From: Orobanche coerulescens
Lineage: Eukaryota > Streptophyta > Magnoliopsida > Lamiales > Orobanchaceae
Assembly (NCBI GenBank): GCA_033398695.1
Contig: CM065802.1
Location: forward strand, 152,816,096-152,880,095
Length of the DNA stretch: 64,000 bases
Reading direction: 5' to 3'
Notes under the pieces: generated by a model
Database searches by the model: none
The model's input: the letters and a program-made list of their open reading frames with translations, nothing else
What the model was told of the DNA's origin: nothing
Part shown: positions 8,282 through 55,163 of the stretch, piece by piece
Layout: each line of letters starts with the position of its first letter
How positions within the stretch are numbered: the stretch's first letter is position 1
Made by a program: the position numbers and the translations under genes

Positions 8282-8919
8282 TGTAGTACCCGTGTACTTT
8301 ATTATTGAGGTCTTTTACTTCTGGACGTACTCCGTTGAGAATTGGTTTGTGAATTTCCATGTTGTATTGTTGGTATTTAGAATCATGTGTATATTGGTTT
8401 TGGAACTGGTATGTTGATTGTTAGTTATTATCTAGTTTTGTACGTACCGGGATGTGTTCATTCGGACCGGACTTCACAATTGTAATGCTGAAGAGCAGCA
8501 GTTAGCGCACACTAACTTGGGTAGCTAGCGCGCGCTAAACAGACATATGTAGCGCACGCTAATGTTGTTCGTAGTGCGCCCTAATTAGGCTGGACATTGG
8601 TTTTTCTGGGGTCTGGAATGAGTCAATTAGCTCACGCTAATGTCCTATTAACGCACTCTATTGAGGTTGATCATAACATTCTGGATTTGGGCAGAAAATT
8701 CATGAATCTTGGACCAGAGCAGGTAGCGCACGCTACCACAAACTCTAGCGCAGGCTAACGGGATTGGACAGAAGTTTCTGGACTGCAAAAACAGCCAAGT
8801 AGCGCACGCTATGCATACCATTAGTGCGCGCTAAGTCCACTTAATATATAAGGGACAGCAGTGGTCAACTTCGTCATTTCTTTCCCTTCTCTCCTCTTCT
8901 CTGACGGTTGGGTGATCTT
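8282..8919 (+). repeat. 5' LTR of the large gypsy element, left piece (U3)
   Basis: It matches 48781-49418, starting at TGTAGTACCCG (sister copy TGTAATATCCG). It holds the palindrome array and the TATA box, and breaks off at GATCTT where the poly(T) of the S15a retropseudogene begins. The LTR resumes at 31608. Confidence 0.88.
8503..8852 (+). promoter_or_regulatory. Palindrome array TAGCGC(A/G)CGCTA plus TATA box
   Basis: Copies start at 8503, 8526, 8550, 8572, 8628, 8649, 8724, 8746, 8800 and 8822. Within runs the spacing is 21-24 bp. The last copy ends at 8833 and the TATA box AATATATAAG lies at 8843-8852. The same array is in the sister LTR at about 49001-49332, with its TATA box near 49341. 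The position just upstream of the TATA box suggests a promoter role; the binding partner is unknown. Confidence 0.85.
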
Positions 8920-9547
8920 TTTATTTTTTTAAACCAGTAGCATAATAATATTAAAATCGTCGTAATTTCTAAAAATTACATTCCTCAAATGGCACAGAAT
9001 GTCGACTCTGCAACATTTATCAATAAATTGCTATGAAGTTCAGAATTAAAACTTAATGATGCAAAGGGGAAAGCAATAAACTCAGCTCAGTAATGCCATC
9101 TCAATGGCCATGCTTAATAAAAGAACCCAAGTACTTTACCTCCGACGCCTTTTTTGCGGGCTTCTTCATGATCCATGATTCCAGCTGATGTTGTCAACAC
9201 AATGTAACCAAACTGTCTCGATGGAAGCAGTCTTGCAGTCCATGACTCAATTACCTTGACACCGACATCAAAGCGAGGACTAATAACCCCACATTTGTTC
9301 ATCCTTCCATTCAATTCAACCACGCTTTTTCCGGACCTGTGATCGTCAACATACTCAAACTCCCTAATGTAGCTATGCTTTTGCATGACCAGAAGAAACT
9401 TAATAATGACTTTTGAAGAAGGCATAATCATGACTTGATGCTTTCCCCTCTTTTCAGCATTGTACATGCTCTTCAGGGCGTCATCAAGACACTTACTCTC
9501 ACCATCTTTCAAGACAACCTGAGAGATCAGTCGCCGCTCCTCCGAGG
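8920..9547 (-). pseudogene. RPS15A: Processed pseudogene of ribosomal protein S15a (uS8)
   Basis: On the minus strand the start codon is at 9505-9503 (MVRVSVL) and the stop at 9116-9114. The span of 392 nt is one short of the 393 nt of a 130-codon uS8 gene. A 1-nt deletion near codon 8 shifts the frame, after which the protein reads on to GKVLGFFY, with typical runs such as [13 protein letters not shown] and [10 protein letters not shown]. uS8 is a small-subunit ribosomal protein that binds 18S rRNA. There are no introns. A 3' UTR (9113-8933) and an A-rich tail (T-rich on the plus strand, 8920-8932) follow. The 5' UTR runs to 9547, and its last 10 nt are displaced to 31598-31607 by a Sirevirus insertion. 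The flanking TSD ATCTT (8915-8919 and 31608-31612) marks LINE-type retroposition. Confidence 0.9.
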
Positions 9548-9552
9548 TTACT

Positions 9553-52654: not shown

Positions 52655-52978
52655 GACAGTGATACATATGATATCGGATCTAGCAATGATTTGGTTGACT
52701 TGGGTGATTGAACCATCTCCTCTCCACCTCCGCTACACTCCCTAAGGTAAGTATAAGGTAAGTGAACTACGAGGACTTTGATTGCTAAGGTAAGGGGATA
52801 CGTAGGCAACTTAATCCAAATATTCAAAGTTGAAATTCTTAATTTTAACTTTGAATATTTGAATTAAGCTCAAGTCCATTTTTTATTTTTTTCCCCCTCC
52901 CCCCCCCCCCCCAAATTTAAAAATGAACTACGAGGACTTTGATTTTGATTCATAAACTCTAAAGTTACGGATATCGAA
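52655..52978 (+). other. hAT 3' non-coding part (left of chromovirus)
   Basis: AT-rich sequence after the transposase stop, with a poly(C) tract near 52893-52911 and a repeated ACTACGAGGACTTTGATT (52766 and 52927). It ends in the chromovirus TSD TCGAA (52974-52978). Confidence 0.7.
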
Positions 52979-55163
52979 TGTAATATCCGCTTTTTTTTTT
53001 CTTTCCCTTGTAATTGTATTTCCGGTGTAATTCTCGATTTTAGTGACCCTCGGGTATCCTTCAGTGTAACTTTTCCGTTATCTTTTGATCTGATTCTCGT
53101 AATTGTTGTGCGGAACCGCCGTTTCGGGGTTGCCGTGGATTCATTCTATGCTATGATGCGTTTCGAGGTGTTTCGTTTGACGTTCCGTTCATATTCCGGT
53201 ATTTTGGGGTCGTTTATATTCTATATCTAGCGCACGCTATATTTCCTGTATAGCGCACGCTAGGAATCCATTAGTAGCGCACGCTACGATTAATTAAATA
53301 GCGCACGCTAACGATTTAGCCACAGGAGTGGCGGTTTAACTCCCGAGGCCTGCGACTATCGGATTAGCGCACGCTATCTTGTCTAGCGCACGCTAATGTC
53401 GGGAGACTAGCGCACGTTAAGTTGTTGATGGCGCGCGCTAGTGTATTTGTCCAAGATCTTGGCGCTTTACTCGAATTCAATCGATTCTAGTTAGCGCACG
53501 CTACGCTGGTATGGTAGCGCACGCTAACGGGCCAGTGAGGTTTGGGCGGTTAGCTACCGGACTCGGCCGATGTTCGGGTAGCGCACGCTATTGGTCGATA
53601 GCGCGCGCTACCGATAGGTTATTAGCGCACGCTACGCATGCATGGTAGCGCACGCTAACGGCAAAAACCACAGCCACGGACTCGGACGCTAACGGGAGGG
53701 TTGGTAACCCTATCCCGTTAGCGCACGCTAACCTTGAGGTCTTAGCATGCGCTAACACTCCCTGGTTATATAAACCAGGGAGTTGACCGAGATAATCACA
53801 AAATCTCATTTCTTCCTCTTTCCGCGGACGAGCGACTCCCGAGCGATTTGAGGCGACTTTCTTCCTCCAATCACTTTAGAGATTCTTGTGCTTGAGTTCT
53901 TGGTGTAAGACTAACATCATCCACTTGTGTTTCTCATCCTAAATCCAAGGTAATCTCTTAGAACCCTACTTTTGGATAATTTGGGGGTTTTGGGATTTTC
54001 TTCCGATTCGTTCCGTTTTGTTGGTGGATTCATGATGTATACGATTGATATTGTTAGTATCTTTAGTTTTCCTACGGATTCATGGATATTTTGTGGATTT
54101 TTACGGAATCGAGAGGGTTTGGTTGTGATCCGCCCTCGTTGTTATTTTATTCGAATATACATGAATCGTAGGCGGGTTTCCGGGTGTATTCCATTTCCGT
54201 AATCGTCTAGAGTTGGTTGTGATTGTGTTATTCGAATCGTTAGGTTCAATCGTCGGTTCCTCACGGTCGTGCTTGATTCTTCCGTTCCGTTCGCGTCACC
54301 GTCTATTAATCGAGGCAAGTATTTTTGGAAACCTTTAAGCTTAACATGAAATGGTGATGTATGTTATTTGTGTGTAACTCACCTCGTGTTGGCCCGACGG
54401 GGTCAAGGAGGAAATCTATCTTTGCCGCCCTGGATTTCACGAGTTTCGTACCCTTCTTGCCAACTCGTTAGGGTCCTTGCAAGGCCTCGAGTGAGAATGT
54501 ATGCCCGCCTGTTCTCACGGCTTAGCGTGTGCGTGGTTTTGTTTTTACGTAATTGTAGCCAACTCGGTAGGGTCCCTGAGGCCTCGAGTGAGAATGTATC
54601 TTTGCCGCCCTGTTCTCAAGGCTAATTGTTTGACTGTTTATTTTCCGGAAAAAGACATGTCTTGTTTTGGTTTTTGAAATGATTTTTGGTGCATGTACTA
54701 TGAAATGTGTAAGCGATTGGTTTGCCTTGAATACTTGTACTAGCGTAATTGCTAACCCCTCTGGGGACCCGTTTTGGGGAAATTCATTTTATGAATTTGA
54801 GTCGTTCATCGAGGCAATGGCTATTTGGACGATACGGATGATGGCCGTGCGTGATGATGGTGCACGAGTGATGTTTTAGTATCTTTACCTTTTTGTCTTT
54901 TGTGGTTTTGAACTAATAGTTGTACTCGAGTACTTAAGGGGTTCTTGTTCGTTTGAACTGTATTGTTGCTTATTATGTTGTGATGGATGATGATGTCATA
55001 TCGACCGGTTGAACCGGGTGTATTGTTCTGTTTTGCGTCTTTATGACGTGGTGTTATTTTATCGTTTCTGTGAGTCATTGTGTATGATGCTGTTCAGCCT
55101 GGTGGGTCCCATATAGGGATTCACGGCGCTGTAATATACCTCGGATATCCTGGGGGTGTTACA
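52979..55163 (+). repeat. Chromovirus 5' LTR (2185 bp)
   Basis: It runs TGTAATATCCGC..GGGGGTGTTACA. U3 holds the palindrome array (53228-53754) and a TATA box in an inverted repeat (CCCTGGTT-ATATA-AACCAGGG, 53760-53780). The transcribed part holds about 100-bp partial repeats (CCAACTCG..CCTCGAGTGAGAATGTAT). It differs from the 3' LTR mostly in GC-rich spots. Confidence 0.92.
53228..53780 (+). promoter_or_regulatory. TAGCGCACGCTA array and TATA box
   Basis: Copies start at 53228, 53251, 53275, 53299, 53365, 53384, 53408, 53429, 53492, 53515, 53579, 53599, 53623, 53646, 53719 and 53743. Within groups the spacing is mostly 23-24 bp (a few 19-21). The last copy ends at 53754, about 12 bp before the TATA box TATATAA. 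The 3' LTR has the same array at about 60273-60800. Confidence 0.92.

Follow-up and report, generated by a model that had tools for sequence, protein, structure and literature searches.

We analysed a 64,000-bp stretch of Orobanche coerulescens DNA (assembly GCA_033398695.1, contig CM065802.1, positions 152,816,096 to 152,880,095; hereafter the window), in which the long terminal repeats (LTRs) of several retrotransposons carry arrays of short palindromes upstream of their TATA boxes.

A nested stack of related retrotransposons

Self-comparison and Pfam scans revealed a nested stack of elements. Element B (52976–62211, plus strand) is bounded by a 5′ LTR at 52976–55163 and a 3′ LTR at 60021–62211, 96.2% identical over 2,208 columns, and its interior encodes gag, protease, reverse transcriptase (RT), RNase H, integrase, and a chromodomain (RVP_2, RVT_1, RT_RNaseH, Integrase_H2C2, rve, SH3_Tf2-1, and Chromo, with the rve and Chromo matches, at 22.8 and 21.6 bits, lying under their cut-offs of 32.6 and 25.1). 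Element C, on the minus strand, has the Integrase_H2C2 zinc-binding domain and a Chromo match of 27.8 bits, over the cut-off. Both display the Ty3/gypsy pol order of chromoviruses, integrase followed by chromodomain, with RT sought in B only. Element A, also of the gypsy type, encodes gag and protease, and we infer its LTRs to be made of the pieces 8282–8919 and 31608–32903, on the one hand, and 48781–50027 and 62502–63188, on the other (identities of matching pieces 93.6, 93.6, and 90.2%). The stack also includes a gag-only element, F (minus strand, LTRs at 9848–13360 and 16102–19609), an orphan LTR, O (plus strand), known here from its LTR array alone, and a minus-strand copia element with an RVT_2 domain, for which the label Sirevirus is that of an earlier, sequence-only reading of this DNA. 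At the left edge of the window lies another gypsy element, E (minus strand), with an exact TGGCGCCGTTGCC at 4097–4109, a motif that with up to two mismatches was present in 47 of 100 shuffles too; we take it to be a tRNA-Asp-like primer site of the Athila/Tat kind. Two palindrome-dense stretches (50046–50298, with CGGTT/AACCG repeats, and 62251–62500) flank element B together with a hAT-like open reading frame (ORF; 51743–52495), and are probably the subterminal repeats of a hAT transposon that B entered.

The sequence-only reading had regarded the LTR families with palindromes as unrelated, but sequence likeness shows A, B, C, and F to be relatives of one another. A and B have their LTR ends and primer-binding site in common (68.6% over 290 bp), as well as other LTR stretches (63–69%), and A has LTR stretches in common with F (65% over 328 and 72% over 105). 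The gags of B and F are 42% identical and those of A and B just 23%, which makes A only distantly related where coding sequence is concerned. B matches C at 65.5% along 1,309 bp of the integrase/chromodomain end. Family O may resemble C. A global alignment of these two was uninformative; a local match inside the long array gap (7/500 shuffles equally good) and a longer one downstream of the TATA box (5/200) are suggestive at most, and the stretch directly after the TATA box showed no likeness above chance (145/500). The match between the long gaps of arrays O (35245–35343) and C (42078–42171), CAACTTTC...AGGCAAGTCAAT, is perhaps a second conserved module. Searched against a protein collection, the B gag had a single match, from Orobanche gracilis (45% identity over 80%), and no relatives of the B integrase piece or of the E RT were confirmed in viral contigs.

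A 12-bp palindrome class at 22–24 bp spacing

The palindromes of families A, B, C, and O and of the F leader fall into one class, TWRCGNNCGYWA (TWRCG-NN-CGYWA), which has 56 exact matches in the 64 kb, none of them outside seven arrays, against a mean of 0.71 and a maximum of four in 100 dinucleotide shuffles. This class was defined after the sites had been seen, and strict palindromes and degenerate scans were also tried. A count free of preset letters, covering all 5-bp half-sites two bases apart, gave 35 occurrences of TAGCG and eight of TTACG versus ~0.14 per half-site, and at centre gaps from 0 to 8 these two half-sites were prominent at gap 2 only. The next largest count, GTACA (13, at gap 5), likely comes from a 64-bp tandem repeat present in seven copies in both LTRs of F (10593–11036 and 16846–17289). 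With up to two mismatches, TWRCGNNCGYWA has 231 matches in the window, and lone two-mismatch sites therefore carry little weight.

Array A, with ten TAGCG-NN-CGCTA-type sites, some with one or two mismatches, occupies 8503–8833 of the 5′ LTR (plus strand) and is copied at 49002–49332 in the 3′ LTR (plus strand), within an LTR piece of 93.6% identity; one 3′ site with three mismatches (49071) was added by homology for the A/B and LTR-copy comparisons and for the centre and CpG counts. Array B has 16 sites at 53228–53754 in the 5′ LTR and its counterpart at 60273–60797 in the 3′ LTR (both plus strand). Array C (41936–42253, minus strand) has ten TTACG-TA-CGTAA-type sites, and the F leader, between the LTR end and gag, holds four perfect copies of TTACGGCCGTAA exactly 23 bp apart (15279–15359, minus strand). 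The 16 sites of array O (35163–35669, plus strand) comprise four exact, six one-mismatch, and six two-mismatch matches to TWRCGNNCGYWA, after dropping a two-mismatch match at 35626 that overlapped its neighbours. A 5-2-5 geometry is thus common to A and B (TAGCG-CA-CGCTA), C (TTACG-TA-CGTAA), and the F leader (TTACG-GC-CGTAA), and O mixes TAACG, TTGCG, TTATG, and TAGC.. forms. Hence, what had been described as two unlike motif classes, GCGC- and ACGT-based, can be merged: both suit TWRCG-NN-CGYWA, and O combines variants. The copia LTR had been thought to show the same phenomenon. It does have two copies of AGTATTTAAATACT 23 bp apart (31246–31282, minus strand; copy at 20129–20165), but this AT-rich motif is separate from TWRCGNNCGYWA, occurs only twice, and lies ~110 bp ahead of a TATA-like sequence.

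Taking one copy per family, neighbouring steps measured 22–24 bp in 31 of 37 cases, with a mean of 22.6 (a weak O site, 35389, entered the run counts and not these spacing counts). A motif-blind count of pairs of similar palindromes, to which A, B, and the Sirevirus each contributed two LTR copies, peaked at 23–24 bp: 35 of the 84 pairs at lags of 13–60 bp fell at 22–24 bp (five at 22, 18 at 23, and 12 at 24), and 13 further pairs at 46–47 bp, about twice 23. The palindromes, their positions, and their spacing were as the sequence-only reading had described them. Its proposal that the sites lie on one face of the helix was ruled out by their phase, since the mean spacing corresponds to ~2.2 helical turns, a mean rotation of ~68 degrees at 10.5 bp per turn, which places the sites off a common face.

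We also counted near-perfect palindromes with neighbours 21–25 bp apart against 300 shuffles of each array. The counts exceeded the shuffle maximum in the B 5′ LTR (seven, maximum two), B 3′ LTR (nine, maximum two), C (three, maximum two), A 3′ LTR (three, maximum two), and F leader (three, maximum one), and merely equalled it in the A 5′ LTR (two) and the Sirevirus (one). The count was zero in O because its sites are degenerate. Palindromes outside the motif class contributed one step in the B 5′ LTR, three in the B 3′ LTR, and one in the A 3′ LTR, which merely equals its shuffle maximum without them. The sequence-only reading had suggested a spacing analysis of the 600 bp ahead of the TATA box; run in the window with TATA-like boxes located by eye, it found pairs at 18–26 bp in A (four and three in the two copies), B (nine and nine), and C (seven), with one in O, one in E, one and two in copia, and none and one in F. 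Of these, the lone F pair and one of the two pairs in the 3′ copy of copia seem fortuitous. Among 168 overlapping windows elsewhere, five had at least one such pair (maximum three), and the F leader array was among these.

Further palindromes, which the sequence-only reading had not included, also precede TATA-like boxes. The F LTR holds four 22–24 bp palindromes (CCGTGT..ACACGG) in steps of 67–68 bp at 12001–12228 (minus strand; copy at ~18253–18480), upstream of a TATTTAA near 11977; their motif differs from TWRCGNNCGYWA and the second palindrome copy is degenerate. In the promoter of E (5094–5244, minus strand), GTGCCGCGGCAC is exact at 5114 and 5184, with one mismatch at 5094 and two at 5233, and the TATA box, near 4997, lies ~100 bp beyond these sites. 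Because the F and E LTRs hold arrays too, two or more similar palindromes precede the box in each of the seven LTR families with a located TATA-like box, copia having just two. Five GCGATCGC-type palindromes (up to two mismatches) at 37406–37682 precede a TATAAAA near 37938 and an ORF (38505–39074) with a weak PF04195 match; 22 similar matches are scattered elsewhere.

Layout and evolution of the arrays

The arrays end close to the promoter. Measured by eye, the last site lies 11 bp from TATATAA in A, 12 and 14 bp from TATATAA in the 5′ and 3′ LTRs of B, 14 bp from TATAAAA in C, and 11 bp from the TATA box in O, in agreement with the 10–15 bp noted previously for four LTRs. When divided into runs with steps of at most 25 bp, the sites form runs of 4, 2, 2, 2 in A, 4, 4, 2, 4, 2 in B, 4, 2, 4 in C, 4 in F, 2 in copia, and 4, 5, 2, 1, 4 in O. 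Run length is even in 17 of the 19 (p = 0.0004 under a composition null), which is no more than suggestive. Moreover, the centre dinucleotide is polar: read towards the TATA box, it is CA in 13 of 16 sites of the B 5′ LTR (CG in two, TG in one) and in seven of ten of the A 5′ LTR (CG in three). Two-sided sign tests of CA versus TG gave 0.0018 for the B 5′ LTR, 0.016 for the A 5′ LTR, and 0.07 for the A 3′ LTR, and the TG centre sits at the TATA-proximal site in both LTRs of B and in the A 3′ LTR.

Such mostly even runs would suit hairpins between two neighbours, and the palindromes might act at the RNA level, an idea already put forward for Sirevirus palindromes of maize: being part of U3, they would belong to the transcript's 3′ end (or, in F, to the leader), where neighbours could pair and the hairpins feed small-RNA production or stabilise the RNA. 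Small-RNA hotspots have been described at Sirevirus palindromes (PMC5311732, PMC10760457). For the two arrays that we folded as RNA, those of the B 5′ LTR and C, folding was much stronger than in 100 shuffles of each (z = −7.55 and −5.81), although this would hold for any palindrome array. The neighbours in the F leader pair perfectly (12/12), but eight of 11 neighbouring pairs in the B 5′ LTR form just 9–10 Watson-Crick pairs of 12, as the CA centre predicts, with a compensating TG centre at the TATA-proximal site only. In addition, hairpins require complementary neighbours, neither a palindrome at each site nor one class across families, and the array adjoins the TATA box on the DNA. Action through RNA thus appears unlikely.

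The arrays might also lack a function and stem from slippage or short tandem duplications, the palindromes being the residue of recent repeats. Tandem Repeats Finder reports 23–24 bp repeats within B, C, and the F leader, and the CA centres of A and B nearly all point the same way, which suggests unidirectional copying. The sequence-only reading had argued against plain tandem duplication from the differing spacers, which holds for A, B, and F, where spacers show no likeness beyond shuffled letters, but fails for C, where they are more alike than shuffled (0/300 reach the value), with O marginal (18/300); duplication thus contributed in these two. Between A and B, sites are identical at 107 of 119 positions and spacers at 136 of 249 (57% in the shuffled-spacer null), in an alignment anchored on the sites, which inflates site identity. 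Taken together with the spacer likeness within C, this indicates that duplication helped build some arrays and that divergence between families spares the site. The two LTRs of B also differ less in sites (4/191) than in spacers (26/377; p = 0.016). Duplication alone, however, does not account for sites that stay (nearly) unchanged amid unlike spacers in A, B, and F, A and B having retained sites between spacers no more alike than shuffled, nor for the TATA register or a centre held at 2 bp across families. We consider this origin quite improbable as a full explanation.

A putative promoter module and its known counterparts

The layout is that expected of binding sites for dimeric proteins in promoters, as the sequence-only reading had proposed. 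We favour the interpretation, with a probability of roughly 0.6, that the arrays serve as activator sites in U3 for a dimeric factor that acts in pairs, forming a cis-regulatory module of a related plant Ty3/gypsy group with at least two chromovirus members. One protein dimer would bind each 12-bp palindrome through the 5-bp half-sites TWRCG/CGYWA and their fixed 2-bp centre and, as sites mostly occur in pairs or double pairs ~23 bp apart, two dimers probably bind together. The high copy number of sites would allow cooperative occupancy, and protein bound at the promoter-proximal pair, just upstream of the TATA box, might recruit the transcription machinery and so activate the element. Half-site and centre differ together between families at most sites, which suggests that the families tracked different members, or a shifting specificity, of one factor family. 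The factor is probably encoded by the host. In favour of this interpretation are the excess of exact sites over shuffles and their confinement to the arrays, the preference of the half-sites for a 2-bp centre, the spacing peak, the TATA register, the mostly even runs, the retention of sites amid unlike spacers, and the published Sirevirus parallel (PMC2829016).

Several observations weigh against this interpretation. The polar centre is unexpected for a purely symmetric dimer, and no TATA box closely follows the F leader array. The two LTRs of A differ in 11 of 120 site positions and 16 of 274 spacer positions (Fisher p = 0.28), so that sites vary at least as much as spacers and there is no sign of post-insertion preservation in A. 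The run parity was spotted before it was tested, takes in weak O sites, and comes from related families. Finally, we know of no factor family that suits all half-sites; the T[G/A]CGT context of NAC factors, compared by eye, suits C and part of O, and not A, B, or F.

Instead of activating transcription, the arrays could counter or set silencing, with a protein encoded by the element or a relative removing methylation, as VANC proteins do, or host methylation being targeted to paired CpGs. Dense noncoding arrays of family-specific short motifs that shift together recall VANC targets (PMC5735166, PMC10398659). Each consensus site has two CpGs, and sites contain much of the CpG content of their spans (16/18 in the A 5′ LTR, 8/8 in the F leader, 19/26 in O, 20/36 in C, and 33/59 in the B 5′ LTR). 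Yet the CpG observed/expected ratio, high for the arrays of B (1.53) and C (2.06), stays close to the window-wide mean of 1.05 for those of A (0.96) and O (1.17), and the DNA directly ahead of the B array is high as well (1.78). Moreover, no Pfam match in the scanned ORF pieces suggests a binding protein, a scan that covered part of the ORFs and included no direct search for VANC-type proteins, and VANC motifs all point the same way within their arrays, the string "palindrom" being absent from PMC5735166 and PMC10398659. A role in silencing therefore seems rather doubtful.

Activation by paired dimers could be part of a broader scenario, which we regard as speculative and unlikely in its entirety: a single, rapidly evolving family of dimeric or tetrameric factors would drive a whole clade of plant Ty3/gypsy elements, its DNA specificity co-evolving with the arrays (TAGCG and TTACG being variants of one 5-2-5 dyad). 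Each retrotransposon family would then have a code of its own for activation or against silencing, carried by site pairs at 23 bp next to the TATA box. To our knowledge, the switches of the most abundant plant retrotransposons are poorly known for most families. A 12-bp dyad in 23-bp pairs beside the TATA box offers a precise site usable as bait for the factor, and comparison among families a route to testing the co-evolution of retrotransposon promoters with host or element factors.

For VANC proteins, such co-evolution with the target sequences has been proposed (PMC5735166). Like the arrays described here, VANC targets are dense arrays of short motifs in noncoding DNA, with a motif that varies by family. 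However, the target motif of Arabidopsis VANDAL transposons, YAGTATTAY, is not described as palindromic in the available text (PMC5735166, PMC10398659), and these transposons encode their own binding protein. NAC factors are also dimeric, and TTACGTA, found in C and some O sites, is among the listed sites of ATAF1, AtNAP, and OsNAC6. Nevertheless, the bipartite NAC sites listed in PMC2754467 (OsNAC6) and PMC4844398 have 4–7 bp between half-sites, in contrast with the 5-2-5 layout; in A and B, a CGT occurs no more than once per site, arises from the CA/TG centre, and lies outside the T[G/A]CGT context, and F has CCGTAA.

Among the literature matches listed (titles and abstract openings), there was no report of palindrome arrays in chromovirus LTRs, which is not proof of absence, and searches for the exact motif strings in full texts listed only seemingly unrelated papers. 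Two-site patterns gave 0 and 4 stretches in viral contigs, and one such pattern gave two in bacterial and archaeal genome contigs, all treated as chance. The closest counterpart is found in Sireviruses (Ty1/copia), whose palindromic "RM" motifs were reportedly the subject of a follow-up in maize by Bousios et al. in 2016. According to PMC2829016, RM motifs lie upstream of the TATA box in LTRs and are absent from classic copia retrotransposons; they are family-specific and CpG-rich, have divergent flanks, and occur in 8–32 copies per element, mostly in the upper LTR half. The arrays of the window share these traits, as many palindromes with divergent flanks precede the TATA box (10–16 sites in A, B, C, and O, the C spacers being partly alike), and extra copies occur in internal noncoding DNA, before ENV in Sireviruses and in the F leader here. 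They differ in their hosts, which are Ty3/gypsy elements, B and C having chromovirus domains, whereas the copia element of the window has just two AT-rich palindromes. They differ also in their core, CG-NN-CG within a 5-2-5 dyad instead of CGG-CCG, which appears only in TTACGGCCGTAA of the F leader and not in the A, B, C, or O consensus, although Tnd-1 is an RM motif that lacks this core as well (PMC2829016). The regular 23-bp spacing, which the available description of RM motifs does not mention, the mostly even runs, and the TATA register of 11–14 bp further set them apart. Palindrome arrays ahead of the TATA box are thus already known in Sireviruses; here they occur in a Ty3/gypsy group and with a stricter layout.

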